NCBI GenBank assembly: GCA_026418115.1
Contig: JAOABY010000017.1
Span: forward strand, 1 to 37,721
Length of the DNA stretch: 37,721 bases
Origin: Spirochaetaceae bacterium
GTDB lineage: Bacteria > Spirochaetota > Spirochaetia > Treponematales > Rectinemataceae
Reading direction: 5' to 3'
In this document: piece after piece, positions 4,566 through 17,612 of the stretch
Layout: every line of letters begins with the position of its first letter
Numbering within the stretch: the first letter of the stretch is position 1
Position numbers and translations under genes: made by a program
Notes under the pieces: model-generated
The model's input: the letters and a program-made list of their open reading frames with translations, nothing else
Database searches by the model: none
Told to the model about the DNA's origin: nothing

Positions 4566-4624
4566 CGGCGCAGCATAAGAAGACACACTCTGCCACTCCA
4601 CGTACCATTGATGTTGACCATTAC

Positions 4625-4658
4625 CTGCATACCTAAGCTTCATAGCTCAGGTATGCAG
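4625..4658. terminator. Strong hairpin between convergent genes
   Basis: Ten-base arms CTGCATACCT (4625-4634) and AGGTATGCAG (4649-4658) pair perfectly. Inside, AGCT (4636-4639) pairs with AGCT (4644-4647) around a four-base loop. It lies between the ends of the converging yfcC-like gene (+) and aldolase gene (-). There is no strong T-run on either side, only TTGAATTTT on the + side. A bidirectional terminator or mRNA 3'-end stabiliser is the likely role. Confidence 0.55.
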
Positions 4659-4709
4659 TTGAATTTTACCTTGCATTCCAGCAAGAATTCTAGAAACGAA
4701 TTTACCAGA

Positions 4710-5624
4710 TTAGACAGGAAGTCCAAGCTCCTTCATCTTGATCATTATCATATCAACCGCAGTGAAGATCTTCTTTTCTTCTTCACAAGACACAGGATCC
4801 AGTGGAAATATGACACGCTTATCGGTCAATCCAAGTCTGCTGAGTGCACACTTGTTTGCAGAAATCTGGTTTTTCGACATCATCAGAATTGCAGATGTCT
4901 CAGCGATCAGCTCATTAAGTTCCATTGTTCTAGAAATATTTCCAGACTTGCCTGCTTCATATAATGCTATGAATAGGCTCGGGAATAGAGGCGAAATGGA
5001 TGGGATGAATCCATCTGCCCCCATGAGCATGGAAGCAGCAGCAAGGGGGGTAGATCCTTGAAGAAGACAGAAATTTTTTCCTTTGAAATACATCAGGCAT
5101 TTGATGAAATCAGGGAAATTGCCGCTGGAATCTTTATATCCAACAACATGATCCATTTTTGAGAGATATTCTATGGTCTCGAATGAAAGGCTCAATCCAG
5201 TAAAGGCTGGGATGCTATAGATCAAAATATCAATATTCGATTCTCGAGCTATTTTTTCAAAGTGCCTCTTGGTTTCATCCTGATTCACGTGTCTGGCATA
5301 GAAAATCGGAGTTACTACGGCACAAGATCCTCCCATTTGTTCCAGCCTCTTGATATTGTCAATCACGCGTCTTGTACTGGTATCCATGACTCCAGCCATG
5401 ACTGGAATCGCTCCACCAACCTCATCTAGAGCAATCCGGATTGCGTTCTCCCTTTGCTGTTGCGTAAGAGCCATTGTTTCGCCATTGGTGCCAGCGACGA
5501 ATATTCCGTGAAGGCCTTTATCGATACAATGACGCAACAGGTTGCGAAAGCCTCGTTCATCAACATTCTCGTTTTCATCAATTGGAGTAATGATTGGAGG
5601 TATCACGCCATAATATTTCTTCAT
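4710..5624 (-). CDS. DapA/NanA-family Schiff-base aldolase, HOGA1-like
   Basis: A 304-residue TIM-barrel lyase of the dihydrodipicolinate synthase superfamily. The Schiff-base lysine is K164 in GYKDSSGN. Other active-site positions are T46 in GTNGE (45-49), Y109 and Y136 in IYSIPAFTG. DapA itself normally has GTTGE and YNxP. The GTNGE plus YSIP...TG pattern is closer to 4-hydroxy-2-oxoglutarate aldolase (human HOGA1 type), which cleaves a 4-hydroxy-2-oxo acid to pyruvate and an aldehyde. This is the last gene of the catabolic block, 46 bases after the flavoprotein, with a GGGAGAG ribosome-binding site. Lysine biosynthesis is unlikely from the context. The true substrate is unknown. Confidence 0.85.
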   Translation of the reverse strand: MKKYYGVIPPIITPIDENENVDERGFRNLLRHCIDKGLHGIFVAGTNGETMALTQQQRENAIRIALDEVGGAIPVMAGVMDTSTRRVIDNIKRLEQMGGSCAVVTPIFYARHVNQDETKRHFEKIARESNIDILIYSIPAFTGLSLSFETIEYLSKMDHVVGYKDSSGNFPDFIKCLMYFKGKNFCLLQGSTPLAAASMLMGADGFIPSISPLFPSLFIALYEAGKSGNISRTMELNELIAETSAILMMSKNQISANKCALSRLGLTDKRVIFPLDPVSCEEEKKIFTAVDMIMIKMKELGLPV

Positions 5625-5670
5625 GTATCTCTCCCTGGTTCATATACTGAGGTTTGGTATTCATGTTTGA

Positions 5671-7239
5671 TCATATTGCTTGTTTTTCAAAAGCTATTTC
5701 TCCATGACTGTCTCGATACAATACTATGCTTCTCTCATATTCTTTGCTCATCTCAGGATAGTCTGTTCTCAGATGTGTACCACGGCTTTCTTTTCTTGCC
5801 AGCGCGGCAGTCAGCATGAGGGAAACGGACAGATATCGCTGTTCAGTGAATGTATCACGTTTCAGATCATCACTATTCGCCTTTGCTTTTTCGAGCAGAA
5901 GAAGAGCATTTAGCAAATCTTTTTCATTTCTATAGATCCCCAAAGCTTTTGAGGCACGGTCAATATAGGCTGCATATTTCATCCTCACATGAAGATCTTC
6001 TCCATACGCAACTGTTGAAGAATATTCTTGAAGCGGTTCAATGCCATCCTTGGCAATTGCTTCTGCGCACATCATCCCAGAGAGCACAGCCTGGCTTGCC
6101 GCATTACCAGCCATTCTGCATGCACCATGAAAACCTGCTGCTGCTTCTCCAACAGCGTATAGACCAGACAGAGAAGATCTGCAACCATTATCTACTTTTA
6201 TGCCGCCGGAGAAGCTGTGGGGTACAGGCCCGACCTCAATCAATTGCTCATTCGGATCGATACCATTTGATTCCAGTCTTTTGTAAAACCAGGGATAGGC
6301 CTTCAGGATTTTTCTATCTATATGTCGAAGGTCAACATAAGCACCACCATGTTCGGATCCTCTGCCAGCATCTATTTCTTTCCATATTGCTTTGTTAATG
6401 AGTGTTTTTGGAGCACCTGCCTCACCTTGAGGCCGATACTGAAGCAAGAATCGTTCATTGTTTGCATTCAGAAGGTATGCACCTTCTCCCAGCATTGCTG
6501 TTGGACATGGTTCACCAAAAGCTTCTTCAGGATGAAGCACCACCATCGGCTCATACTCAAGAAACTCAAGATCGGTCAGTTTTACTCCTGCGTTGAATGC
6601 AATTCCAAGGGTTCGACCATTAACATCTGCCGGATAGGTTGACTTGCCCAGTAGAGTCCCTACACCACCCCACCCCGCAATGACCGTAGAAGCATATTTT
6701 GTGCTGATTTGGCCATTGCCATCACGTACAACAACTCCGGCAATATGATCATTTATGGTGATAAGATTCACTACCTCGCTAGAAAGATTGAATTCCACTC
6801 CTTTCCCGATAAGCGAAGTTCTCAGTGTTCGTTCGATATGGGCGCCAATAAGCTCGGTAGTACTGCATAAAGAGCGAGGACAGGATGATCCGCTTGCATG
6901 CCTTCTTAGCAGATCACCACCTGCAGTACGCGCAAACCGGACACCCCATCGGCAAAGAAGTTCATATCCTTCTACAGTCTTGCTGATCATTTCCTTAACC
7001 AGGTCCCGATCATTTAGCCAATATCCAGCTTCAAGCATATCCCTGTAGTACTGTTCTGGCGTGTCTCCATAAGGATTATCAGGCAGGACAAAATTGATTG
7101 CGGCTATATATGGTGTTCCTCCGAAGGCAGGTGCAAAAACACCGATTTTCTTGATTCCAAGTTCGACCAAACGCGCTGCCGTTGAAAGTGCAGCCAGTCC
7201 GCTTCCCGCTAGTATCACATCATATCGGGACTCGCTCAT
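5671..7239 (-). CDS. FAD-dependent oxidoreductase of the FrdA/SdhA/NadB superfamily with altered active site
   Basis: A soluble flavoprotein of 522 residues. GSGLAA at 12-17 is the dinucleotide-binding loop. HSFSGGI (341-347) and HGACRMAG (371-378, R375) match the substrate His and Arg of fumarate reductase. The C-terminal SRGTHLRTDYPE matches SRGAHxRxDxPE of NadB/SdhA. Two conserved residues are changed: the QFHPT position reads EYEPM (His to Glu230, Thr to Met232), and the Arg of RGEGGYL reads Leu250. It should therefore not be called aspartate oxidase or fumarate reductase without data; oxidation of a different hydroxy or saturated acid is likely. No signal peptide or heme motif is seen. 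The ribosome-binding site is GAGAGGGG. Confidence 0.82.
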   Translation of the reverse strand: MSESRYDVILAGSGLAALSTAARLVELGIKKIGVFAPAFGGTPYIAAINFVLPDNPYGDTPEQYYRDMLEAGYWLNDRDLVKEMISKTVEGYELLCRWGVRFARTAGGDLLRRHASGSSCPRSLCSTTELIGAHIERTLRTSLIGKGVEFNLSSEVVNLITINDHIAGVVVRDGNGQISTKYASTVIAGWGGVGTLLGKSTYPADVNGRTLGIAFNAGVKLTDLEFLEYEPMVVLHPEEAFGEPCPTAMLGEGAYLLNANNERFLLQYRPQGEAGAPKTLINKAIWKEIDAGRGSEHGGAYVDLRHIDRKILKAYPWFYKRLESNGIDPNEQLIEVGPVPHSFSGGIKVDNGCRSSLSGLYAVGEAAAGFHGACRMAGNAASQAVLSGMMCAEAIAKDGIEPLQEYSSTVAYGEDLHVRMKYAAYIDRASKALGIYRNEKDLLNALLLLEKAKANSDDLKRDTFTEQRYLSVSLMLTAALARKESRGTHLRTDYPEMSKEYERSIVLYRDSHGEIAFEKQAI

Positions 7240-7262
7240 CTGATACCCCTCTCATTCAATAT

Positions 7263-7310
7263 ATTGCGACAGGATATGAAAATGGCCATCATTCTCATCC
7301 CTGTCGCAAT
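7263..7310. repeat. Inverted repeat upstream of the flavoprotein gene
   Basis: Eleven-base perfect arms, ATTGCGACAGG (7263-7273) and CCTGTCGCAAT (7300-7310), enclose 26 bases that contain the small palindrome ATGGCCAT. The repeat is 23 bases before the flavoprotein start codon on the minus strand, in a 210-base intercistronic gap. It could be an operator, a leader hairpin or an mRNA processing site. Confidence 0.55.
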
Positions 7311-7413
7311 TGCATTGTTCAAAAAGCCATCGCAGATGGATAAGCCTGTCTGACTAATTCAAAATTCTATTCATGCTAAAACCGTCTGTAATACTAAAAC
7401 CTCCAATAGCTAT

Positions 7414-7434
7414 TTCTGATCACAGGAATCAGAA
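7414..7434. repeat. Small hairpin after the TRAP permease stop
   Basis: Seven-base arms TTCTGAT (7414-7420) and ATCAGAA (7428-7434) around a seven-base loop, starting 16 bases beyond the TRAP permease stop on the minus strand. No T-run follows, so it is more likely a 3' stabiliser or processing site than a full terminator. Confidence 0.4.
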
Positions 7435-7449
7435 CTGTGGTTCCGAAGC

Positions 7450-9357
7450 TCAGATTGCTACTTTCACTCTTTTCTCATGTCTATTCTTCACATATGAAAG
7501 AATGAAAACTAAAATGCCCAAGCATATTCCCACAATATCCGTGATTGTCTCCGGCACGATCAGCATTACAGAAGCCACAAAAAGCAGTATACGCCAGAAC
7601 ATCCCTATCGTCCCATTCATGTATCCGGCCATTGCAGATGCCAGGAAATACACACCAATCAGGACAACAACACTTCCTCTGAGAATCTGCAGAGGGGATC
7701 CAAGCATGAGGATGCTAGGATCATAGATGAATACGAAAGGTATAAGAAAAGCTACTAGAGCGTACCTGAAAGCGGTCCAACCAGTTTTCATTGCATCTGC
7801 ACCAGCAATTCCTGCGGCAGTAAATGAAGCCAGGCAGACTGGTGGAGTAATTTGTGCCATGACTCCGAAATAGAATACGAACATGTTCGCCTGCAGAGGT
7901 GGAATATTCAACCCTGTGAGAGTCGGAACGAAAAGGACGACTGCAACGAGGTATGCTGCAACAGTTGGTAGTGCCATTCCGAGGACAATACACCCAAGCA
8001 TTGCTATGATAAGCGCAAAGAACAGATTGGAAATCCCGATACTCGCAATAAGCCCGCTTATTTTTGTTGCCAGGCCACTTTGTATGACTATTCCGATAAT
8101 TATGCCGCATGCAGCCGTTGGAATAGCAATTTCAGCAGCTTGCTTGCTCCCCTGAACAAGACCGTTCAGCAAGTCGCGGGGAGATACGAAATTCTTCCTC
8201 TCGGGGAGGAAATAGCTGACGATATTCAGAATCAGGACTGCATAAATGCCATACATTGCGCTTCTCATCAGCGAGGCACCGGCGATCATGAAGTAGACAA
8301 GAATAAATGCCGGAAGGAGCAGATAGAGGCGAGGAAGAATTGGCTTGACTTCTATGCTCACTGTATTGCTCGTCTTATCGAGATCCCGCTTTTTTGCCAA
8401 TAAAGTGACCAGAAAAAATACGGACATGTAATATGCAAGCGCGGGGATGATGGCGGATTTTGCAATATGCATGTATGGTACACCGAGCATTTCAGCCATA
8501 ATGAATGCACCGATGCCCATGATTGGTGGCATTATCTGGCCGCCAGTAGACGCTACAGATTCAACAGCTCCGGCTTCATGGGGTAGATATCCAACTTTTT
8601 TCATCATGGGAATTGTCATTACGCCAGTCGTCGATACATTTGCAACTGCACTTCCGGAGATCATGCCCATCAGGCCAGAAGATATCACTGCAGCCTTTGC
8701 AGGACCCCCAGAGCTCTTGTTTGAAAATTTCATTCCGATGTCAATGAGCACCTGGCCTCCTCCACATAATGAAAAGAAGGCGCCGAACATTATGAAATAA
8801 TAGAGAACGGATGAAGATGTATAGAGCGGTGTTCCATAGATTCCATCGACACCCATGATCATCAGCTCGGTAAATTTCTTAAGGTTAGTTCCTTTGAATC
8901 TGAAAATGCCAGGGAAGATATTGCCAAACCACATATAGAAAATAAAAAAGGAAATAAAAATGAACAGAGACCATCCAAGAACACGACGAACCGATTCCAT
9001 CAGGATAATCACGACAACGATCATCGCGACCATATCAAGCTGCGTTACTGGACTGATATAGGGAACCCGCTGCTGAAGACGATTTGTCTGCGAGAGCGTA
9101 TACCAGATTAGAAATGCAATTCCCGCATAGATTATAACATCAAAGATCTGAATCCACTTCTTTTCGGGTCTTTTTTCATTTGCTGGATGCATTAAAAAAA
9201 CGATAATAAGGCCGAAAATAATATGAAGAGGACTCTGGAGCATGGGATGCAGGGGGGAAATAAGAGCCAGGTACAACTGGTATGCCGCCCACAATGCACT
9301 CATGATGATAATTGCGGCCTTTCCAATGTTTTTCCTGGAGCCAATACTGTCGCTCAC
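7450..9357 (-). CDS. TRAP transporter fused permease (4TM/12TM, TAXI-associated)
   Basis: The membrane component of a tripartite secondary transporter, 635 residues, with the small DctQ-like and large DctM-like subunits in one chain. The first third has about four to five hydrophobic segments, ending near VRRVLGWSLFIFISFFIFYMW. The remainder is the M domain, with the glycine-rich SGLMGMISGSAVANVSTTGVMTIPMMKK segment and a repeated ALPTVAAYLV / AQITPPVCLASF pattern typical of these permeases. Translation starts at GTG (9355-9357) with GGAG about nine bases upstream; no better ATG is present. It follows its binding-protein gene after a strong hairpin. TAXI systems usually move organic acids using the sodium gradient. 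Confidence 0.92.
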   Translation of the reverse strand: MSDSIGSRKNIGKAAIIIMSALWAAYQLYLALISPLHPMLQSPLHIIFGLIIVFLMHPANEKRPEKKWIQIFDVIIYAGIAFLIWYTLSQTNRLQQRVPYISPVTQLDMVAMIVVVIILMESVRRVLGWSLFIFISFFIFYMWFGNIFPGIFRFKGTNLKKFTELMIMGVDGIYGTPLYTSSSVLYYFIMFGAFFSLCGGGQVLIDIGMKFSNKSSGGPAKAAVISSGLMGMISGSAVANVSTTGVMTIPMMKKVGYLPHEAGAVESVASTGGQIMPPIMGIGAFIMAEMLGVPYMHIAKSAIIPALAYYMSVFFLVTLLAKKRDLDKTSNTVSIEVKPILPRLYLLLPAFILVYFMIAGASLMRSAMYGIYAVLILNIVSYFLPERKNFVSPRDLLNGLVQGSKQAAEIAIPTAACGIIIGIVIQSGLATKISGLIASIGISNLFFALIIAMLGCIVLGMALPTVAAYLVAVVLFVPTLTGLNIPPLQANMFVFYFGVMAQITPPVCLASFTAAGIAGADAMKTGWTAFRYALVAFLIPFVFIYDPSILMLGSPLQILRGSVVVLIGVYFLASAMAGYMNGTIGMFWRILLFVASVMLIVPETITDIVGICLGILVFILSYVKNRHEKRVKVAI

Positions 9358-9382
9358 GGTTTCTTCTCCTTGATATGGTGAG

Positions 9383-9430
9383 AAAAATGAGAGAGCATGA
9401 CTCCCTGTTGAAGAGGGACCATGCTCTCTC
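9383..9430 (-). terminator. Intra-operon hairpin with T-run between binding protein and permease
   Basis: On the minus strand, GAGAGAGCATG (complement of 9420-9430) pairs with CATGCTCTCTC (complement of 9389-9399). An inner CCCT/AGGG pair extends the stem, and five Ts follow (complement of 9383-9387). The structure starts five bases past the stop of the TAXI gene. In TRAP and ABC operons such elements usually let the binding protein be made in excess over the permease, either as a leaky terminator or as a 3' shield against exonucleases. Confidence 0.75.
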
Positions 9431-9435
9431 CTGAT

Positions 9436-10443
9436 TCATTTCATATAGCCCTGTTCTCTATAATATCTGGCAGCTCCAGGATGCAGTGGTGCTCCAGCCT
9501 TCAATGGTTCCCAGGCTGTCTTCGGATCAAAGACCTTGAGTGCAGCACTTGCATTCACCAGTGCTGCTGTATTCTCACACAGTGCTTTGGTCATTGCATA
9601 AACGATATCATCACCGAGCTTCCCGGAAACGAGAATGGTCTGTGGCGAACCAACACTCTGAATCTCGTTGGTCTGTCCTTTCCATGTATTTGCAGCGATA
9701 GTGACATTATCGAAACCTTGATCATTCAGTTTTTTCCTCGTCTCCGCTGAAAGCTGGGGAAAGAACATTGCAGTTGTCATGCACAGCTCGGTTGTTGCAC
9801 TCTGTCCTGCAGCCAGATGGTCAATTGTGATATCAGCCTTGTTATCCTTAAGCAGGCTGACAATTGCATCGGATCCGGTCTGAGTTACTGATCCACCCCA
9901 GCTCTTAATATCAGCAAATGTCACACCCAGGACCTCGAAAACCTTTTCACAGGCAAGTGCTCCAAATGAACCAGCTGTTTTGATTGCAACTCGAACGGGA
10001 TATTTTTTTGCTACAATTTCCTCAACAGTTTTGATACCAGTTCTTTTTACGAAATCCTGAGTGAAAAGAATATTGATGAAATCCTTTGACAATCCACCAG
10101 CCAAAGCCTTGACATTCTTGGCAGGCGGATTACCCAGTATTCCTGTTTTCACTGCCCACAAGGCAGGTGCGGAATTTCCCAGTGTAATTTCAGCATCTCC
10201 ATTTTCAATCAGAACAGGGGCACCAAATCCGCCAGGAGAAGTAGTTGTAATATCGATAGTCGACCCTGCGGGAAGGCCTTTCATGAAAATATTGGCGAGT
10301 GCTGATGCATAAACATACATGCTGGTCCCGACGCTCTGGGTCGCGAATGTAAGCCTAACTGGCTTGTCCGCCGCGAATGCCGATGTCAACAGCATCATGA
10401 ACAGCATCGCTACCAGAGCAATGCTTCTGATTGCTTTTTTCAT
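9436..10443 (-). CDS. TAXI-family TRAP solute-binding protein
   Basis: A periplasmic receptor of 335 residues. The N-terminus is a classical signal peptide (basic MKKAIR, hydrophobic core, cleavage after TSAFA near residue 24). The mature part begins with VRLTFATQSVGTSMYVYASALA, the usual start of TAXI proteins, followed by the TTTSPGGFGAPVLIENGDAEI region that lines the ligand pocket. There is no lipobox cysteine, so it is probably soluble. The ribosome-binding site AGGAGG is perfect. The gene directly precedes the fused permease, forming a complete transporter. The TAXI fold does not allow the ligand to be predicted; a hydroxylated or dicarboxylic acid fits the neighbouring enzymes. Confidence 0.93.
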   Translation of the reverse strand: MKKAIRSIALVAMLFMMLLTSAFAADKPVRLTFATQSVGTSMYVYASALANIFMKGLPAGSTIDITTTSPGGFGAPVLIENGDAEITLGNSAPALWAVKTGILGNPPAKNVKALAGGLSKDFINILFTQDFVKRTGIKTVEEIVAKKYPVRVAIKTAGSFGALACEKVFEVLGVTFADIKSWGGSVTQTGSDAIVSLLKDNKADITIDHLAAGQSATTELCMTTAMFFPQLSAETRKKLNDQGFDNVTIAANTWKGQTNEIQSVGSPQTILVSGKLGDDIVYAMTKALCENTAALVNASAALKVFDPKTAWEPLKAGAPLHPGAARYYREQGYMK

Positions 10444-10478
10444 ACGATCCTCCTAAATCCGACAGATGATTTATGTAA

Positions 10479-10494
10479 TGCTGAATTCTCAGCA
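10479..10494. repeat. Short hairpin between the pdxA-like and TAXI genes
   Basis: TGCTGA (10479-10484) and TCAGCA (10489-10494) pair around a four-base loop in the 69-base gap. There is no T-run, so it is not a convincing terminator. It could mark mRNA processing that separates enzyme and transporter messages. Confidence 0.35.
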
Positions 10495-10512
10495 AATACA
10501 TCCCATAATTGG

Positions 10513-11601
10513 TCAAATTCCCTTGCGGCTCATGATATGCTTTCGCGAAAACCCTGCAGCATATCGGATTGCCTCAACCATGCTCTCCTCGCTTGCCATT
10601 CCCTTCCATGCCTGATCAAATGCGGTTCCGTGATCTACCGAAGTGCGGATTATTGGAAGACCCAGGGTAATATTGACACCTCGCACTGATTTCCAGGTAT
10701 GGCTGGAATTATCCCAGATGAAGCCGATCATTTTGACAGGTATATGGCCCTGGTCATGGTACATGGCCACAACAATGTCATAATAGCCACCTGCAGCCTT
10801 TACGAAGAGCGTGTCCGGTGAAATCGGTCCATCAACATCCATTCCATATTTTCTAGCTTCGGCAATCGCAGGTGCGATTTCATTCCGCTCTTCAAGGCCA
10901 AAAAGACCTCCATCACTTGCATGCGGGTTGAGACCTGCCACACCAATGCGGGGACGATCTATACCGAAATCCTGCATTGCTGCATTCGCCAGCTTGATAA
11001 CAGATAGCACACGTTCCTTCTTTATGAGATCGCATGCCTCTCTGAGAGGAACATGGGTAGTTACATGGACAACCCGCAATTTTCCATCAGCAAGCATCAT
11101 TGCGTAATCTCTGGTTTTTGTGTAATGAGCATAAATTTCTGTATGGCCTGAAAAAGCATAGCCGGCTAGATTCAATGCTTCCTTATTGATTGGGCTTGTA
11201 ACTGTTGCATCTACTTGTCCAGCCATTGCCAGTTCGATGGTTTTCTGAATGGCTTCAAATGCGGCATGTCCCGCAGCACCTGAAACCTTTCCGAATTCGA
11301 ACGAGGCCAATTCAACAGAATGCTGATCCAGAACATCTATAGTACCGAATCTGAATTCTGCTTCATTTGGTTCTCTGATTGTATGAATATGCAAGGGCTT
11401 TCCGATCAGATGGATCGCGCGCTCCATAATCGAGGCATCGCCAACTACCAGCGGATTTGATATCTGATATATCTCCTTCAAAGACAATGATTTTGCAGTA
11501 ATTTCAGGACCTACGCCTGCTGGATCTCCCATAGTGATGGCAATGACTGGAAGCCTTTCTGTCATCTCATTTTCACTATGAGTTTCCTTGTTATTTCCCA
11601 T
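10513..11601 (-). CDS. PdxA2-like 4-phospho-hydroxyacid dehydrogenase
   Basis: A 362-residue member of the 4-hydroxythreonine-4-phosphate dehydrogenase family, a metal- and NAD-dependent oxidative decarboxylase. Motifs: GDPAGVGPE near the N-terminus, SGHTEI, GLNPHA, YHDQGHIPVK and RTSVDHGTAFD, including the three metal-binding histidines. Beside a DUF1537 kinase the family is known as PdxA2, which converts 4-phospho-D-threonate to DHAP and CO2; that role is more likely here than pyridoxine synthesis. The start at 11601 abuts the ADH stop and has GAGAGG upstream. A second ATG at 11565, nearer the family N-terminus, is possible but has a weaker site. Confidence 0.87.
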   Translation of the reverse strand: MGNNKETHSENEMTERLPVIAITMGDPAGVGPEITAKSLSLKEIYQISNPLVVGDASIMERAIHLIGKPLHIHTIREPNEAEFRFGTIDVLDQHSVELASFEFGKVSGAAGHAAFEAIQKTIELAMAGQVDATVTSPINKEALNLAGYAFSGHTEIYAHYTKTRDYAMMLADGKLRVVHVTTHVPLREACDLIKKERVLSVIKLANAAMQDFGIDRPRIGVAGLNPHASDGGLFGLEERNEIAPAIAEARKYGMDVDGPISPDTLFVKAAGGYYDIVVAMYHDQGHIPVKMIGFIWDNSSHTWKSVRGVNITLGLPIIRTSVDHGTAFDQAWKGMASEESMVEAIRYAAGFSRKHIMSRKGI

Positions 11602-12756
11602 TTATAGAACCTCTCTGTATATAGCCTTGATGGCATCCTTGCTGAGATCAACAGGATTGTTGTCCAGTAAACGCCTGACCCCATATGCAGCATCTGCAAG
11701 GGTATCAAGCGCAGATGTGCTGATACCGAATGGCTTGAGAGTTGCCGGTATTCCCATTTCCTTTACCAATGACCTCAGACTCTCGATGAGTTCATTCGCC
11801 CTTGCCCTGACATCGCCTTTTATACCGCTTCCGATTGCATCTGCAACCATTGCCAATCTGGAAGCAATGAACTCTTTCTGATATTTCATCACAGGAACCA
11901 GCAGAATGGCATTCGCAATACCATGTGGAATTCTGTAGATTCCTCCTAATGGATAGGAGAGGGCATGAATGGCATTTGTTCCAGAGGCGGTGATGCATAC
12001 TCCTCCATAATATGCACCAAGCATGGCTTTCGACCGTGCCTCCAGATTTGAGCCTTCATGATAGGCAACTTGTAATGAAGTCATCATGAGTCGCAACCCT
12101 TCCAGAGCATACATGTCACTGAAGGCATTTGCTTTTTTACCAATGTAGCATTCGAGCAGATGACATATGGCGTCGATGCCTGTTGAAGCGGTGAGAGAAG
12201 CTGGAAGTCCCAAGGTCAGTTCCGGATCCAGAATTACAAACTGTGGAATTAAATAACGGCTCACAATCCCGATCTTGAGATTTCTGGAAGGAAAGAGCAC
12301 AATAGCATTGGGAGTAGCTTCAGCACCTGTACCTGCTGTAGTCGGAATCATTACACATGGAATTCCCCTTCCTGGAACTCCACGATCCGCAAGTTCCATG
12401 GTAGAACACTGATGTATTGCCAGAGTTGATAGAACTTTCGTCGCATCAATAACCGAACCGCCTCCAACAGCAATCATTGCTGAAGGGTTTGTCTCTCGTA
12501 CCTTCCCGGCGAGCAAATCCAGATCATTGTCTGTCGGTTCTGCCGGAATTGAATCAAGAATCTCCAGGTCAAATCCTTCTTCATGAATGCCTTCGACTAT
12601 CCTCTCGAGCATTCCTGAAGCAAGGATATTTTGATCTGTGATTAGCAGTATGGTTGCTCGTGGTTTACAAAATGAAGATATGATCTTGCCGGCTTTGGAA
12701 GAGGTTCCAGCACCGAATTGTACAAATGGCACAGAGAATGCTTCAAAAGATCTCAT
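11602..12756 (-). CDS. Iron-type (group III) alcohol dehydrogenase
   Basis: A cytoplasmic NAD(P)-dependent dehydrogenase of 384 residues. GGGSVIDATK is the nucleotide-binding motif. The metal site is visible as D and H in TGIDAICHLLE, and two further histidines in HALSYPLGGIYRIPHGIAN. The intact set suggests an active enzyme. The family acts on aldehydes, primary alcohols or hydroxyacids, so the substrate is open. The ORF overlaps the end of the kinase gene by 14 bases (12743-12756) and is followed without a gap by the pdxA-like gene. It is thus wedged between two enzymes that normally act in sequence, which suggests it works on the same pathway. The ribosome-binding site is AGGGAG. Confidence 0.9.
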   Translation of the reverse strand: MRSFEAFSVPFVQFGAGTSSKAGKIISSFCKPRATILLITDQNILASGMLERIVEGIHEEGFDLEILDSIPAEPTDNDLDLLAGKVRETNPSAMIAVGGGSVIDATKVLSTLAIHQCSTMELADRGVPGRGIPCVMIPTTAGTGAEATPNAIVLFPSRNLKIGIVSRYLIPQFVILDPELTLGLPASLTASTGIDAICHLLECYIGKKANAFSDMYALEGLRLMMTSLQVAYHEGSNLEARSKAMLGAYYGGVCITASGTNAIHALSYPLGGIYRIPHGIANAILLVPVMKYQKEFIASRLAMVADAIGSGIKGDVRARANELIESLRSLVKEMGIPATLKPFGISTSALDTLADAAYGVRRLLDNNPVDLSKDAIKAIYREVL

Positions 12757-14035
12757 TCTTACTTCTCCCTAAAGTCTTCATCAGAGGAGAGACAATGCGA
12801 AGGCATTCCACCATTGCATCTTCATCACCAAATCCTCCTGACTTCGACACATAATAGATTTTTCGCCCTAAAGCATTCGATTTAAAATATCCGTAAGGAA
12901 TACCAGGAATTATTTCATCCACAAATCTGATACAATCAGTATCCAGAGTCTCGATGATACGAGCGGCCGTATCTCCGCCTGATGCGATAATCAGTTTAAT
13001 TGAGCACTCCTGAGCAATCACTCTGGCAAGACTCCCCATGAATTGGGATATCTGTAATCCAACATTCTTATCGATTGCGCTGCCATTTCTACCACGCAAG
13101 ATATGATCTGTCCTTAATAACAGAGGGCAATTCCGTTGCAGAGAATTCAAATGCTCCATAATACGGGTTATCTCATCTGATGGGTCATTCAATGCTCGAG
13201 ATGTATCAACAACCAACTCTTCTACAGTCTCAACCTCCAGTAATCTGTTGCATTGTCTGATGGTTTTTTCTGTCAACGATCCAATAACGAACAGAACTGC
13301 TTTTCTGGGAAAGTCATGCCGTACTGCAGTAGAGCATTTTTTCCCATCTGCTATCGCTTCAGCCAATCCTGATGAGCCTGCAAACAGTATCCCAGGCATT
13401 GTCTGCATGTTGGATATGATTTTCAGATCCTCCATAGTCTCTGCGTCGGCTATAAAAACACGTATCCCTCTTGCCAGCCCATCCTCTATTTTACTTCTCA
13501 GCAGTGATGAACCAGACCGAATATCGGACAGAAAAAGCTCTTCTACAGCTCCGGGAAATCGAATTTGCAGGAATTCCGATATTCGACCGATATTGACTGG
13601 ATTAAAGGGGTCACGGCCAATCGATGTATCCGTTAATGGAACTCCATCTATCAGGCATACTCCATTGATAACCGTTCTTCTGTTCCTGGGTGCAGCAGGT
13701 GCTACAATCACGAATCGAAATCCCCCTGCATCCATCACAGCAGCTATCTCTTCTGCTATATTTCCCCGAAGAGTTGAATCAATTTTTTTGAAAAATGCAC
13801 GATAGCCCAATTCGTAAAGCATCCGGGTTGCTGATGCTACCTTTCTATATGCATCTTTCCCGTCCAGAAAACGCGTATCCGTGTTAATTACTACAGTCTC
13901 ATGCTTTTGAAAGGTTATTCCATCTGAATATCTATCTATCAGAAGAAAAACTGGTTTCCCGCAGGACACAAACTGCACTGCTGAATCGCCAGCTCCCGTA
14001 AAATCATCTGCAATTATTGCCCATTTCCTGCTCAT
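12743..14035 (-). CDS. DUF1537 four-carbon acid-sugar kinase
   Basis: An ATP-dependent kinase of 430 residues for the terminal hydroxyl of acids such as threonate or erythronate. The N-terminal substrate domain starts with WAIIADDFTGAGDSA and has FFKKIDSTLRGN near residue 100. The C-terminal nucleotide domain has LIIASGGDTAARI and ends with the conserved KSGGFGDEDAM. Length is normal for the family. A longer reading from 14062 is open, but that ATG lies inside the predicted -24 promoter element, and the family N-terminus fits the ATG at 14035. No clear ribosome-binding site precedes it, and the predicted leader is only about six bases, so translation may be near-leaderless. First gene of the catabolic operon. 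Confidence 0.9.
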   Translation of the reverse strand: MSRKWAIIADDFTGAGDSAVQFVSCGKPVFLLIDRYSDGITFQKHETVVINTDTRFLDGKDAYRKVASATRMLYELGYRAFFKKIDSTLRGNIAEEIAAVMDAGGFRFVIVAPAAPRNRRTVINGVCLIDGVPLTDTSIGRDPFNPVNIGRISEFLQIRFPGAVEELFLSDIRSGSSLLRSKIEDGLARGIRVFIADAETMEDLKIISNMQTMPGILFAGSSGLAEAIADGKKCSTAVRHDFPRKAVLFVIGSLTEKTIRQCNRLLEVETVEELVVDTSRALNDPSDEITRIMEHLNSLQRNCPLLLRTDHILRGRNGSAIDKNVGLQISQFMGSLARVIAQECSIKLIIASGGDTAARIIETLDTDCIRFVDEIIPGIPYGYFKSNALGRKIYYVSKSGGFGDEDAMVECLRIVSPLMKTLGRSKNEIF

Positions 14036-14051
14036 AGCCAAGAACACATAT

Positions 14052-14067
14052 GCAAATGGCATGCCAA
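14052..14067 (-). promoter_or_regulatory. Sigma-54 (-24/-12) promoter of the catabolic operon
   Basis: The minus strand reads TGGCATGCCATTTGCA. The invariant GG and GC are separated by exactly ten bases, and the flanks match the TGGCAC...TTGCA consensus at nearly every position. It lies immediately before the kinase gene and downstream of a gene for a sigma-54 activator. Transcription would start near 14041. Confidence 0.78.
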
Positions 14068-14206
14068 TTTAGAAATCAGAAAAAGCTATTTCTCTTGAGG
14101 TAAACTTTTACAATATCTTCAAATCTTTTCTAATAAAAACCAATGTTTGCTCATTCGCAAAAGTATTCAATTGGTAGCTTTATTGTTGTATGAAGATAAC
14201 CACAAG

Positions 14207-14229
14207 CGGAAATGGTGAAAAAATTTCCG
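14207..14229. promoter_or_regulatory. Dyad, candidate upstream activator site
   Basis: CGGAAAT (14207-14213) and ATTTCCG (14223-14229) are inverted around nine bases. TGGTGAAA also occurs twice in direct orientation, at 14213-14220 and 14233-14240, twenty bases apart or about two helical turns. The dyad centre is about 175 bases upstream of the predicted sigma-54 start point, a normal distance for an enhancer-binding protein. The bases between dyad and promoter are very AT-rich: 14101-14160 holds 15 G+C of 60. Two weaker dyads are nearby: TTTGC-N6-GCAAA at 14146-14161 and GTTCTG/CAGAAC at 14229-14253. Confidence 0.5.
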
Positions 14230-14264
14230 TTCTGGTGAAATTATAATCAGAACTCAGCACATTT

Positions 14265-16136
14265 TTATTTTTTAAGCCGTTTCCTGATAGTAACTCTGTC
14301 AAGATCGAGGCGTTTTGCAGTACGGGAAATGTTTTCGCCCTCCTGAATATATACGTGATGAATGATTCTATCCTCAATTTCCCTGAGAGTCCCAATCAGG
14401 AAATCACCACCTGGTTCAGATTTGTTAGGGTTGTTCTTGCTGCTTTCGATCGATGAAATAACAATGGATGCAGCACGCTCACCGAATAGGTAATAGAGGG
14501 TAAAATAGCGTTCAGCCAAATTTTCCAATTCCCGAACATTCCCAGGCCATTCGTAATCAGAAAGAACCCTCAGCAAGGAATCGGGTACATTTACTTTTAA
14601 TGGCGAATGCTTGCGAGCAGCCATTTTTGTGAGAAAGAGCATGAACAGATGTTCAACATCACCTTTCCTGGCACGCAGTGGCGGAATGTTGATCTCCAGT
14701 ACATTTAATCTGTAATACAAGTCTTTTCTAATTCTTCCTCTTTTCACCTCCTCCTGCAGGGGAATGTTCGATGCTGTAATTACCCGAACTGAAACTGGAA
14801 TGATTTTGGTATCCCCGATACGCATGATTTCCCGTTCCTGTAAAACTCGCAGGAGTTTCGACTGTAGCTGGAAATCAAGCTCATTGATTTCATCCAGAAA
14901 AATGGTGCCATTATGAGCGAGCTCAAAAAGACCGGCTTTCCCGCCACGCATGGCACCGGTAAATGCCCCTTCAGCATATCCGAATAACTCGCTTTCAAGC
15001 AGGCTGGCAGGAAGTGCACCACAGTTTATAGCTACAAAAGGTCCATCCCTCACAGCGCTTGCATTATGAATGCTCTGAGCCAGAAGCTCCTTACCAGTCC
15101 CCGTTTCTCCATAGATCACTATATTGCTATCGGTCTGAGCATATTGCCGAGCAATATCTATACAAAATTGCATTGAGGGAGATGAAGTATAGATATCAGA
15201 GAATGTGTGCTTGGCTGTGAGACCCTTTGCATACAGTTGTTTTCTCACTTTATTTTCAAGAGCCTGAATTCTGCCAACATCCTGCAGGACGATGACAGCA
15301 CCTTCCACTTTGCTGTTGGCAACGAATGGAGTCAGATTGACAGCGAATCGCCTCCCATTTATTTCTTCCAATTTGCCTGTGACTTCAGAACCTTTTTCCA
15401 TGATACGAATCAGTTCTTTATCATTGATGACTGACTGAATGGATGTCCCATTTAGAATTGACATACCCAATAGTTCTGAGGCCTTGGAATTTACTTGATT
15501 TACAACACCATTTTTATCAACAGCCAGGATGGCTTCCTGTACAGAATTGAGGATTGCTCTTATTCTTATGTCACTTTCACGCTGTAAGCGGATTTTTTTT
15601 GCTATGAGAACAGCTTTGCTGAGTGCCTCATACACTGCATATTCATCTGATTCTATAAGATGCAGTTCAGTATTGATTCCTCTGGCAGCATTTATAGTAA
15701 TCATATCTCCAATCAATACGTCGATTCTCTGATTCGCTATCAGTTGGATTCTGGATTCGACTTCCGTCTCGGTATCAACCGGCAGACATGTGATCGGGAT
15801 ATCCAGTATTGTGCACATCTTTTCTACCTGTTCGGTCAAAGACCTGAAACCGATTACTGCTGCCTTCTTCTTGGCATGTATTAACGGTTGAAGCACCCGG
15901 AGAAGTTCATATTGTGATATTCCAATCTCAATTACTTCAACTCCAAATGTTTCGCGTATTAGCTTTGCAGTACCTCCCCTGCTGACGATAATTGACCCAT
16001 CAATCATTGCAGCTCTTGCAGGCTCAAGAGCTTCCTGCAGATTTGCAACTATAGTGTTTATCGGAATGTCAAAACGATCGATCAAGGAGTCCGCGATTAT
16101 TTTCATCTCTTTATACGGTGCTATCAGGATCACCAT
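14265..16136 (-). CDS. Sigma-54-dependent activator with PrpR_N-type sensor and PAS domain
   Basis: A 623-residue enhancer-binding protein. Residues about 1-175 resemble the PrpR_N effector domain (SRGGTAKLI, VIEIGISQYELLR). About 190-290 form a PAS domain (ILNSVQEAILAVDKNGVVNQVN). About 320-555 form the AAA+ module with Walker A GETGTGKE (near 343), the sigma-54 contact loop GAFTGA (near 389) and Walker B GTIFLDEI. The C-terminus is a Fis-type HTH (NISRTAKRLDLDRVTIRKRLKK). No receiver domain is present, so it probably binds a metabolite. The ATG at 16136 has AGGAG eleven bases upstream. A GTG at 16178 would add 14 residues but has no ribosome-binding site. It is transcribed toward the kinase operon, which it most likely activates. 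Confidence 0.92.
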   Translation of the reverse strand: MVILIAPYKEMKIIADSLIDRFDIPINTIVANLQEALEPARAAMIDGSIIVSRGGTAKLIRETFGVEVIEIGISQYELLRVLQPLIHAKKKAAVIGFRSLTEQVEKMCTILDIPITCLPVDTETEVESRIQLIANQRIDVLIGDMITINAARGINTELHLIESDEYAVYEALSKAVLIAKKIRLQRESDIRIRAILNSVQEAILAVDKNGVVNQVNSKASELLGMSILNGTSIQSVINDKELIRIMEKGSEVTGKLEEINGRRFAVNLTPFVANSKVEGAVIVLQDVGRIQALENKVRKQLYAKGLTAKHTFSDIYTSSPSMQFCIDIARQYAQTDSNIVIYGETGTGKELLAQSIHNASAVRDGPFVAINCGALPASLLESELFGYAEGAFTGAMRGGKAGLFELAHNGTIFLDEINELDFQLQSKLLRVLQEREIMRIGDTKIIPVSVRVITASNIPLQEEVKRGRIRKDLYYRLNVLEINIPPLRARKGDVEHLFMLFLTKMAARKHSPLKVNVPDSLLRVLSDYEWPGNVRELENLAERYFTLYYLFGERAASIVISSIESSKNNPNKSEPGGDFLIGTLREIEDRIIHHVYIQEGENISRTAKRLDLDRVTIRKRLKK

Positions 16137-16262
16137 TTTTGATTCAGCTCCTCTCACTGACTTCCTAATACTAATCACAAATAGGCATTAATAACTTGCA
16201 TCAGAATTCTGTATGCTGGTGCATGTTGTTTTTCATGGAAAATGGTACCGCACTGAGTTGAT

Positions 16263-16281
16263 CATGAAATACAATTTCATG
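16263..16281. repeat. Perfect hairpin between aroA and the activator gene
   Basis: CATGAAAT (16263-16270) and ATTTCATG (16274-16281) pair around a three-base loop, six bases beyond the aroA stop on the minus strand. A T-run is lacking. It may end the aroA message or serve as an operator for the activator gene; a ten-base palindrome, CAGAATTCTG (16202-16211), also lies in this 150-base gap. Confidence 0.45.
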
Positions 16282-16286
16282 CTACT

Positions 16287-17612
16287 TTATTCTTTCACGA
16301 GACTGAGTACCTTAAAAAACCCCGGCCACGACTTGGCCACGCATTCCGCACCGCGAATCTGTACAGGGCCGGCAGCACGCAGCGCAGCAATCGCTGCGGT
16401 CATCGCGATGCGGTGATCGCCGTGCGCATCTACCTCGCCGCCTGAGATGGCACCCCCATGTATCACAAGGCTATCGCGCTCCCGGTCGATCTCGATCCGG
16501 ACGCCGAGCGCCTTATAGACATCCTGGAGCGTCGCCGCCCGGTCGCTTTCTTTTGCGGCGAGACGGTGCACACCCTGCACCACCGAGACACCCGGAATCG
16601 CTGCAGCGAGCGCTGCAAGCGGCGGAAAGAGGTCCGGGCAGTTGATGGCTTCGAATTCGAAGGGTCTGAGAGCTCCGGGTGCGACGCAGCACCGTCCCTC
16701 GCGCCATTCGACCCGCGCGCCCGCCGCTTCAAGCACCTCGAGGATCGCCCGGTCCGGCTGCTCCGATGCTGGATCAAGCCCTTCGATCTGTAGTCCGCGC
16801 GGCGTCCCTGCTATGGCCGCGGCAACCGCCAGAAACGCAGCCCCGCTCCAGTCGCCTTCGACGTCGAACGAAGTTGCCCTGTAGCGCTGCCCGCCGGCGA
16901 CGTGGAAGCGCACATGCTGCGTGCCACCAAGGCTGTTGCAGCCAGCGCCTTCATCTTCGCCCTCGACATCGATATGGACACCGAAACGCGCGCATACCTG
17001 CCGCGTCAGGTCAAGGTACCCCACACTGACCGCATTGCGCACCTCCAGCACCGAATCCCCGCGGCACAGCGGCAGCGCGATCAGCAGTCCCGTGATGGTC
17101 TGCGAACTGCCCTGCGCATCGATGCTCGCATGCCCAGCCTTGAGCGGGCCGCGCACCACAAGCGGCGGAAATCCCCCCGGCGCACTCGCGCATGTCGCGC
17201 CGAAAGCCGCCAGCGCCTCAGCCACCATCTGCATTGGCCGCTTCAGCAGCGTACCTTCGGCTTCAAGCCTAACCGTCCGGTTCCCCAGCGCAGCGATCGG
17301 GGCGTACATCCGCATGCAGAGGCCCGATTCGCCACAGGAGAGCGCGAGCGTCTCCCCTTCTGCCCCGCCCGCGATCTGCCTCAGACCACCCTCGATACCA
17401 AGGGACCCGGGCTCCGGCTGCTGCACGCGGGCGCCCAGCCCCTCGGCAACCCTCAGCGCAGCAAGCGCATCATTGCAGAGTGTGACACCCCCCAGCATCG
17501 AAACTCCCTCTGCAAGCGCAGCACAGGCAATGGCGCGCTGGAGGGCACTCTTTGAGGCGGGCGCGCGGACTCTGCCTTCCACTCTGCCGGGATAGACCAC
17601 TCGTGTTTCCAT
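16287..17612 (-). CDS. aroA: 3-phosphoshikimate 1-carboxyvinyltransferase (EPSP synthase)
   Basis: Transfers enolpyruvyl from PEP to shikimate-3-phosphate, the step before AroC. The 441 residues include K21-S22 and R26 in SKSALQR, the PEP-side loop CGESGLCMRM (93-102), SSQTITGLL, NCPDLFPPLAA with the catalytic Asp, KESDRAATL, DHRIAMT and KSWPGFF. Against E. coli the loop has Leu98 at the T97 position and Met102 at the P101 position, the two positions changed in glyphosate-tolerant TIPS enzymes. The start at 17612 has GGAG nine bases upstream and fits the family; a 39-residue longer reading is unsupported. It is strongly GC-rich and lies on the opposite strand from aroC-pheA-tyrA, beyond the AT-rich block. 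Confidence 0.95.
   Translation of the reverse strand: METRVVYPGRVEGRVRAPASKSALQRAIACAALAEGVSMLGGVTLCNDALAALRVAEGLGARVQQPEPGSLGIEGGLRQIAGGAEGETLALSCGESGLCMRMYAPIAALGNRTVRLEAEGTLLKRPMQMVAEALAAFGATCASAPGGFPPLVVRGPLKAGHASIDAQGSSQTITGLLIALPLCRGDSVLEVRNAVSVGYLDLTRQVCARFGVHIDVEGEDEGAGCNSLGGTQHVRFHVAGGQRYRATSFDVEGDWSGAAFLAVAAAIAGTPRGLQIEGLDPASEQPDRAILEVLEAAGARVEWREGRCCVAPGALRPFEFEAINCPDLFPPLAALAAAIPGVSVVQGVHRLAAKESDRAATLQDVYKALGVRIEIDRERDSLVIHGGAISGGEVDAHGDHRIAMTAAIAALRAAGPVQIRGAECVAKSWPGFFKVLSLVKE

Follow-up and report, generated by a model that had tools for sequence, protein, structure and literature searches.

In the PrpR-prpBCDE system, as with other enhancer-binding proteins that carry a PrpR_N domain, the regulator has the domain order PrpR_N, PAS, AAA+ and Fis-type HTH, and its gene adjoins a catabolic operon driven by sigma-54. 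The catabolism of D-threonate and D-erythronate, in turn, relies on a DUF1537 kinase together with PdxA2. Here we describe a locus from a 2.17 Mb spirochaete draft genome that resembles both systems; the window analysed is the entire contig C50 (37,721 nucleotides). While it shares with PrpR-prpBCDE the domain order of the regulator and its position beside a sigma-54-driven operon, that operon is of a sugar-acid type rather than a 2-methylcitrate type. The activator reaches 334.3 bits against the 499.2-bit cut-off of the NCBIfam equivalog for propionate PrpR (TIGR02329), and is best classified as PrpR-like, not PrpR itself. Like the D-threonate/D-erythronate pathway, the window pairs a DUF1537 kinase, a PdxA-type enzyme and a transporter in one predicted operon, to which it adds an iron-containing alcohol dehydrogenase, a FAD protein, a DHDPS-family protein and a transporter of the TRAP-TAXI type. 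The regulatory circuit itself is ordinary; the recurrent near-leaderless start that we infer for the DUF1537 kinase gene would be its unexpected feature.

All genes of the locus lie on the minus strand. A stretch of 229 non-coding bases separates the activator gene (16136-14265) from the downstream gene for the four-carbon acid sugar kinase (14035-12743), in which both DUF1537 domains (SBD_N and NBD_C) are present. Downstream are genes matching, by domain, the iron-containing alcohol dehydrogenase family (12756-11602) and the PdxA family of the 4-phospho-threonate/erythronate dehydrogenase type (11601-10513), then a TRAP-TAXI solute-binding protein (10443-9436; Shine-Dalgarno sequence AGGAGG), a TRAP fused permease (9357-7450; GTG start, AAGGAG), an FrdA/NadB-like FAD-binding oxidoreductase (7239-5671; GAGAGG) and a DHDPS/aldolase family protein (5624-4710; GGGAGAG). 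Because a DUF1537 kinase is combined with a PdxA-type enzyme, the predicted substrate of the pathway is probably a four-carbon sugar acid. The 227.4 bits scored by the kinase fall below the 450-bit cut-off of the D-threonate kinase equivalog (NF047819). The catabolic cluster (window 4600-16300) has a GC content of 42-46% between flanks of 53-64%, and is placed between aroC/pheA/tyrA-type genes and an aroA-type gene (names assigned by eye); the closest relatives of its activator are found in scattered genomes. It looks like a horizontally acquired island within an aromatic amino acid gene block.

The activator, 623 amino acids long when read from ATG 16136 (preceded by the Shine-Dalgarno sequence GAGGAG; the longest open reading frame begins at GTG 16178), matches a PrpR_N sensor, a PAS domain, a sigma-54 AAA+ domain with the GAFTGA motif and a Fis-type HTH, and thus belongs with the PrpR-type enhancer-binding proteins. 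This agrees with an earlier note on this DNA, which had placed a GAFTGA-bearing activator beside the promoter. An rpoN gene, the absence of which that note had named beforehand as refuting its reading, was found in the genome (E = 8e-47). Moreover, the relatives L081, L052, L056 and L058 share the arrangement in which the activator gene is followed by a sigma-54 promoter and then a catabolic operon, the activators of L081 (the closest) and L052 being 65% and 61% identical to that of the window. The L081 contig, with its closely related activator and its sigma-54/kinase arrangement, is filed under Candidatus Cloacimonadota, a placement that would reflect either mis-binning or gene transfer. Taken together, the results lend good support to a predicted circuit of activator, sigma-54 promoter and operon. 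The complete circuit proposed earlier stands in these parts; its remaining part, a dyad serving as the activator site, does not (see below).

The -24/-12 element TTGGCATGCCATTTGCA occupies 14067-14051 on the minus strand, with the C of the -12 GC at base 14052. Its GG (14065-14064) and GC (14053-14052) are separated by exactly 10 bases (GG-N10-GC) within a TGGCAYR-N4-TTGC context, as expected of a sigma-54 promoter and as the earlier note had reported. Shuffling both strands of 14035-14264 gave a local chance expectation of 0.00055 for YTGGCAYRN4TTGCW. There are four perfect consensus matches in the 2.17 Mb genome, this one included; those on contigs C48, C50 and C97 each lie within about 1.3 kb of a gene with an activator domain, and the fourth falls within a coding open reading frame. 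When up to 2 mismatches were allowed, the consensus matched 320 times and the reversed pattern 82 times. The very AT-rich surroundings that had also been remarked upon are evident, the promoter region having 26-36% GC against about 44% in the flanking genes. A search for sigma-70 sites gave none above the chance level. We therefore take 14051-14067 to be a genuine sigma-54 promoter. With the C of GC set at -12, transcription is predicted to start at 14040 ± 2 (14038-14042, minus strand); starts at sigma-54 promoters can differ by a few bases.

The longest-open-reading-frame rule would start the kinase at ATG 14062, which lies inside the -24/-12 element. However, the N-termini of homologous kinases align from ATG 14035 (MSRKWAIIADDFTG in the window; MYSKW, MKSQW, MDSPW and MNTKW in relatives), the related proteins starting 7 residues ahead of the IADDFTG motif (MSRKWA, MYSKWA, MKSQWF, MDSPWF, MNTKWC), and in G157 an in-frame stop stands immediately 5' of the corresponding ATG. 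On these grounds ATG 14035 is the true start. The claim that the promoter abuts the kinase start thus holds as to proximity, but the start implied by the longest frame sits within the promoter and the real one lies beyond it. The distance from the -12 C to ATG 14035 is just 17 nt, which puts this codon at +6, about 5 nt downstream of the +1 predicted from promoter geometry. Being so near, the promoter should leave the message with hardly any 5' leader, a consequence that the earlier note had not recognised. A fitting Shine-Dalgarno sequence is lacking at all three candidate kinase starts (ATG 14062, GTG 14047 and ATG 14035), whereas the TAXI, TRAP, FAD and DHDPS genes further along the predicted operon each have one. 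The start codon is an ATG, as expected of a leaderless or near-leaderless message. We infer that the kinase mRNA is near-leaderless, with a predicted leader of 5 nt, rather than strictly leaderless.

DUF1537 genes were collected from the order and the phylum and screened for good sigma-54 sites no more than 150 bases away from the conserved motif. This identified 17 distinct loci with a close upstream site, L081 counted among them. At 12 of the 17 the start codon, an ATG in every case, falls between +1 and +6 and has no Shine-Dalgarno sequence: +6 in the window, L231 and L246, +5 in L081, +4 in L195, +3 in L204, L206, L209, L250, L252 and L359 (from a genome of a different order within the class), and +1 in L251. 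The other five are led by Shine-Dalgarno sequences, with starts at +12, +12, +13, +16 and +54. Judged by their sequences, the genes with near-leaderless geometry are divergent from one another: the window kinase shares 41-51% identity with others of its own subgroup, and a second group carries a different motif, LADDLTG. By comparison, a hand count gave a near-leaderless ATG at 10 of 123 other sigma-54 sites (P = 3.8e-8, a value that treats loci as independent although the genomes are related, and that compares two sets with slightly different site definitions).

The wider set comprised 124 distinct strict consensus sites with a nearby ATG across the order; 80 sites were examined for a real open reading frame, 71 of them from the 124 and the others from a second collection. 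Among non-DUF1537 sites with an ATG at +1 to +3, 12 of 21 had a real open reading frame with no later Shine-Dalgarno start, against none of 34 with an ATG at -1 once later in-frame Shine-Dalgarno starts were excluded (P = 6.7e-7). An order-wide ATG peak at -1, seen at match length 29, was considered as a set of leaderless genes and left uncounted, since it consists mostly of initiator-like TATA-N-RTG sequences with Shine-Dalgarno-led starts downstream. Likewise, the +6 position proves nothing by itself, because in hsp20-type genes (L278, L280, L312 and L319) an ATG also falls at +6, yet the true start is a later in-frame ATG led by a Shine-Dalgarno sequence. A cross-phylum control yielded just 17 distinct sites, a number too small to estimate a rate. 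From these counts we regard near-leaderless sigma-54 genes as a real, minority class.

Several further observations were made at the sigma-54 sites of the order (L255-L334). In many, TATA-N-RTG, an initiator-like motif whose R is at -1, directly follows the -12 element and can mislead start-codon calling. Five related membrane-protein genes from different genomes (L255, L293, L300, L323 and L324) combine a sigma-54 site with an ATG precisely at +2 and lack a usable Shine-Dalgarno sequence; L255, the sole member scanned, matched no Pfam family. L297 and L325 are genes for RpoH-like factors of the sigma-70 family with a sigma-54 promoter and an ATG at +1/+2, which suggests a cascade from sigma-54 to a heat-shock-type sigma factor. 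At L262, L273, L278, L280, L304, L312 and L319 a conserved initial transcribed sequence resembling RTGTTGATG comes after the site, and about 70-115 nt of leader precede a Shine-Dalgarno-led start; at least L278, L280, L312 and L319 appear by eye to encode small heat-shock proteins. Such leaders could possibly act as RNA thermometers.

The earlier note had also pointed to a CGGAAAT-N9-ATTTCCG dyad and a 20-base-spaced direct repeat upstream of the promoter. Both exist: the dyad spans 14207-14229, and the direct repeat is the 8-mer TGGTGAAA, with copies at 14213 and 14233. Each taken alone does not exceed chance: of the dinucleotide shuffles, 38% contain a 7-bp dyad with a spacer of 4-20 nt and 16% a direct repeat of 8 bp. 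We compared eight promoters that follow orthologous activator genes or precede orthologous kinase genes. Their best-shared 7-mer was TTCACCA/TGGTGAA, which makes up the core of the direct repeat and occurred in the upstream regions of 6 of the 8 promoters, a count attained in 3 of 400 shuffled sets; the two regions in which it was not found were L183 and L081, the latter having the closest activator. In the window the two copies lie on the minus strand at 14233-14239 and 14213-14219, 172 and 152 nt upstream of the -24 element and 20 bp apart, and in L052, the nearest relative of the same genus, TTCACCA is found at -172 and TCACCA at -150. An inverted repeat, TGGTGA-N5/N8-TCACCA, was also considered as the site, but it is perfect in L178 and L182 only and the single word is better supported. 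Because the word recurs in related promoters, we assign the putative activator site to the tandem TTCACCA copies instead of the dyad; modest evidence makes these copies the likely candidate.

How the kinase gene might be expressed can be read in several ways. An ordinary sigma-54 circuit with the activator bound to the dyad would place the enhancer about 178 bp upstream of +1, a typical distance, and the dyad does overlap the second TTCACCA copy. Against this stand its chance-level frequency, the lack of a second perfect copy in the genome, where matches with 2 mismatches equal the control, and its absence upstream of all seven related promoters examined and beside orthologous activators; we consider this reading quite unlikely, and the dyad was rejected as an enhancer. 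That the dyad is instead an RNA hairpin in the activator transcript, a terminator or attenuator, is very improbable: its 7-bp stem does form in the predicted RNA fold, but the z-score is only -1.16, there is no T-run and no terminator was called there.

It is also unlikely that the kinase has a normal leader, supplied by a sigma-54 start further upstream, a second promoter or transcription from the activator gene. No terminator was called between the two genes, so that read-through into the kinase would be possible, and the in-frame ATG 14062 and GTG 14047 are available as starts. However, neither these nor ATG 14035 has a Shine-Dalgarno sequence, ATG 14062 is embedded in the -24 element, a sigma-70 site above chance is missing, and the promoter-to-ATG distance is short throughout the 12 divergent loci.

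We therefore consider it probable that an activator acting at the TTCACCA pair and the sigma-54 promoter produce a near-leaderless kinase mRNA heading a sugar-acid operon. A pathway metabolite would probably bind the PrpR_N domain at the N-terminus of the activator, which would occupy the tandem TTTCACCA sites about 150-170 bp upstream. Its GAFTGA AAA+ domain would then remodel the closed complex, allowing RNA polymerase-sigma-54 to open at TTGGCATGCCATTTGCA, with transcription beginning near 14040, some 5 nt ahead of the kinase AUG. The first cistron would be translated by recognition of a 5'-terminal AUG rather than Shine-Dalgarno pairing, and the dehydrogenase, PdxA-type, TRAP and later genes would make up the rest of an operon for four-carbon sugar-acid catabolism.

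Looking beyond this locus, we see as much reason to accept as to doubt that spirochaetes have a class of sigma-54 promoters built for leaderless or near-leaderless mRNAs, retained at DUF1537 kinase genes and also found with RpoH-like factors of the sigma-70 family, NifX-like proteins and a membrane enzyme family. If the class is true, activator-dependent polymerase and Shine-Dalgarno-independent translation work together; for the kinase, a message beginning at the AUG would join tight on/off control by the activator to such translation of the first cistron. Start-codon calls that follow the longest frame, here ATG 14062 within the promoter, would also be corrected.

The promoter of the window belongs to the class described in a sigma-54 regulon reconstruction for Clostridiales (PMC6615313), which also records PrpR_N activators, and in a 2025 survey (PMC12316311), which does not use the word "leaderless". 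A genome-wide survey of leaderless genes looked for sigma-70 -10 boxes beside start codons (PMC3160421) and would therefore miss those driven by sigma-54. We found no literature joining sigma-54 with DUF1537, an absence that is not proof; in the available portions of the literature on leaderless mRNAs and sigma-54, start-site maps contain both topics and we found none linking them as a class. Near-leaderless translation is plausible in this phylum because, in an experimental study, hundreds of mRNAs of the spirochaete Leptospira interrogans were mapped with leaders shorter than 10 nt, many 5' ends lying 0-10 nt from the start codon (PMC5243855). As described there, the leaderless mRNAs of Leptospira are genome-wide and not tied to sigma-54, whereas the start in the window is a predicted one and its counterparts are concentrated in a single sigma-54-driven family.
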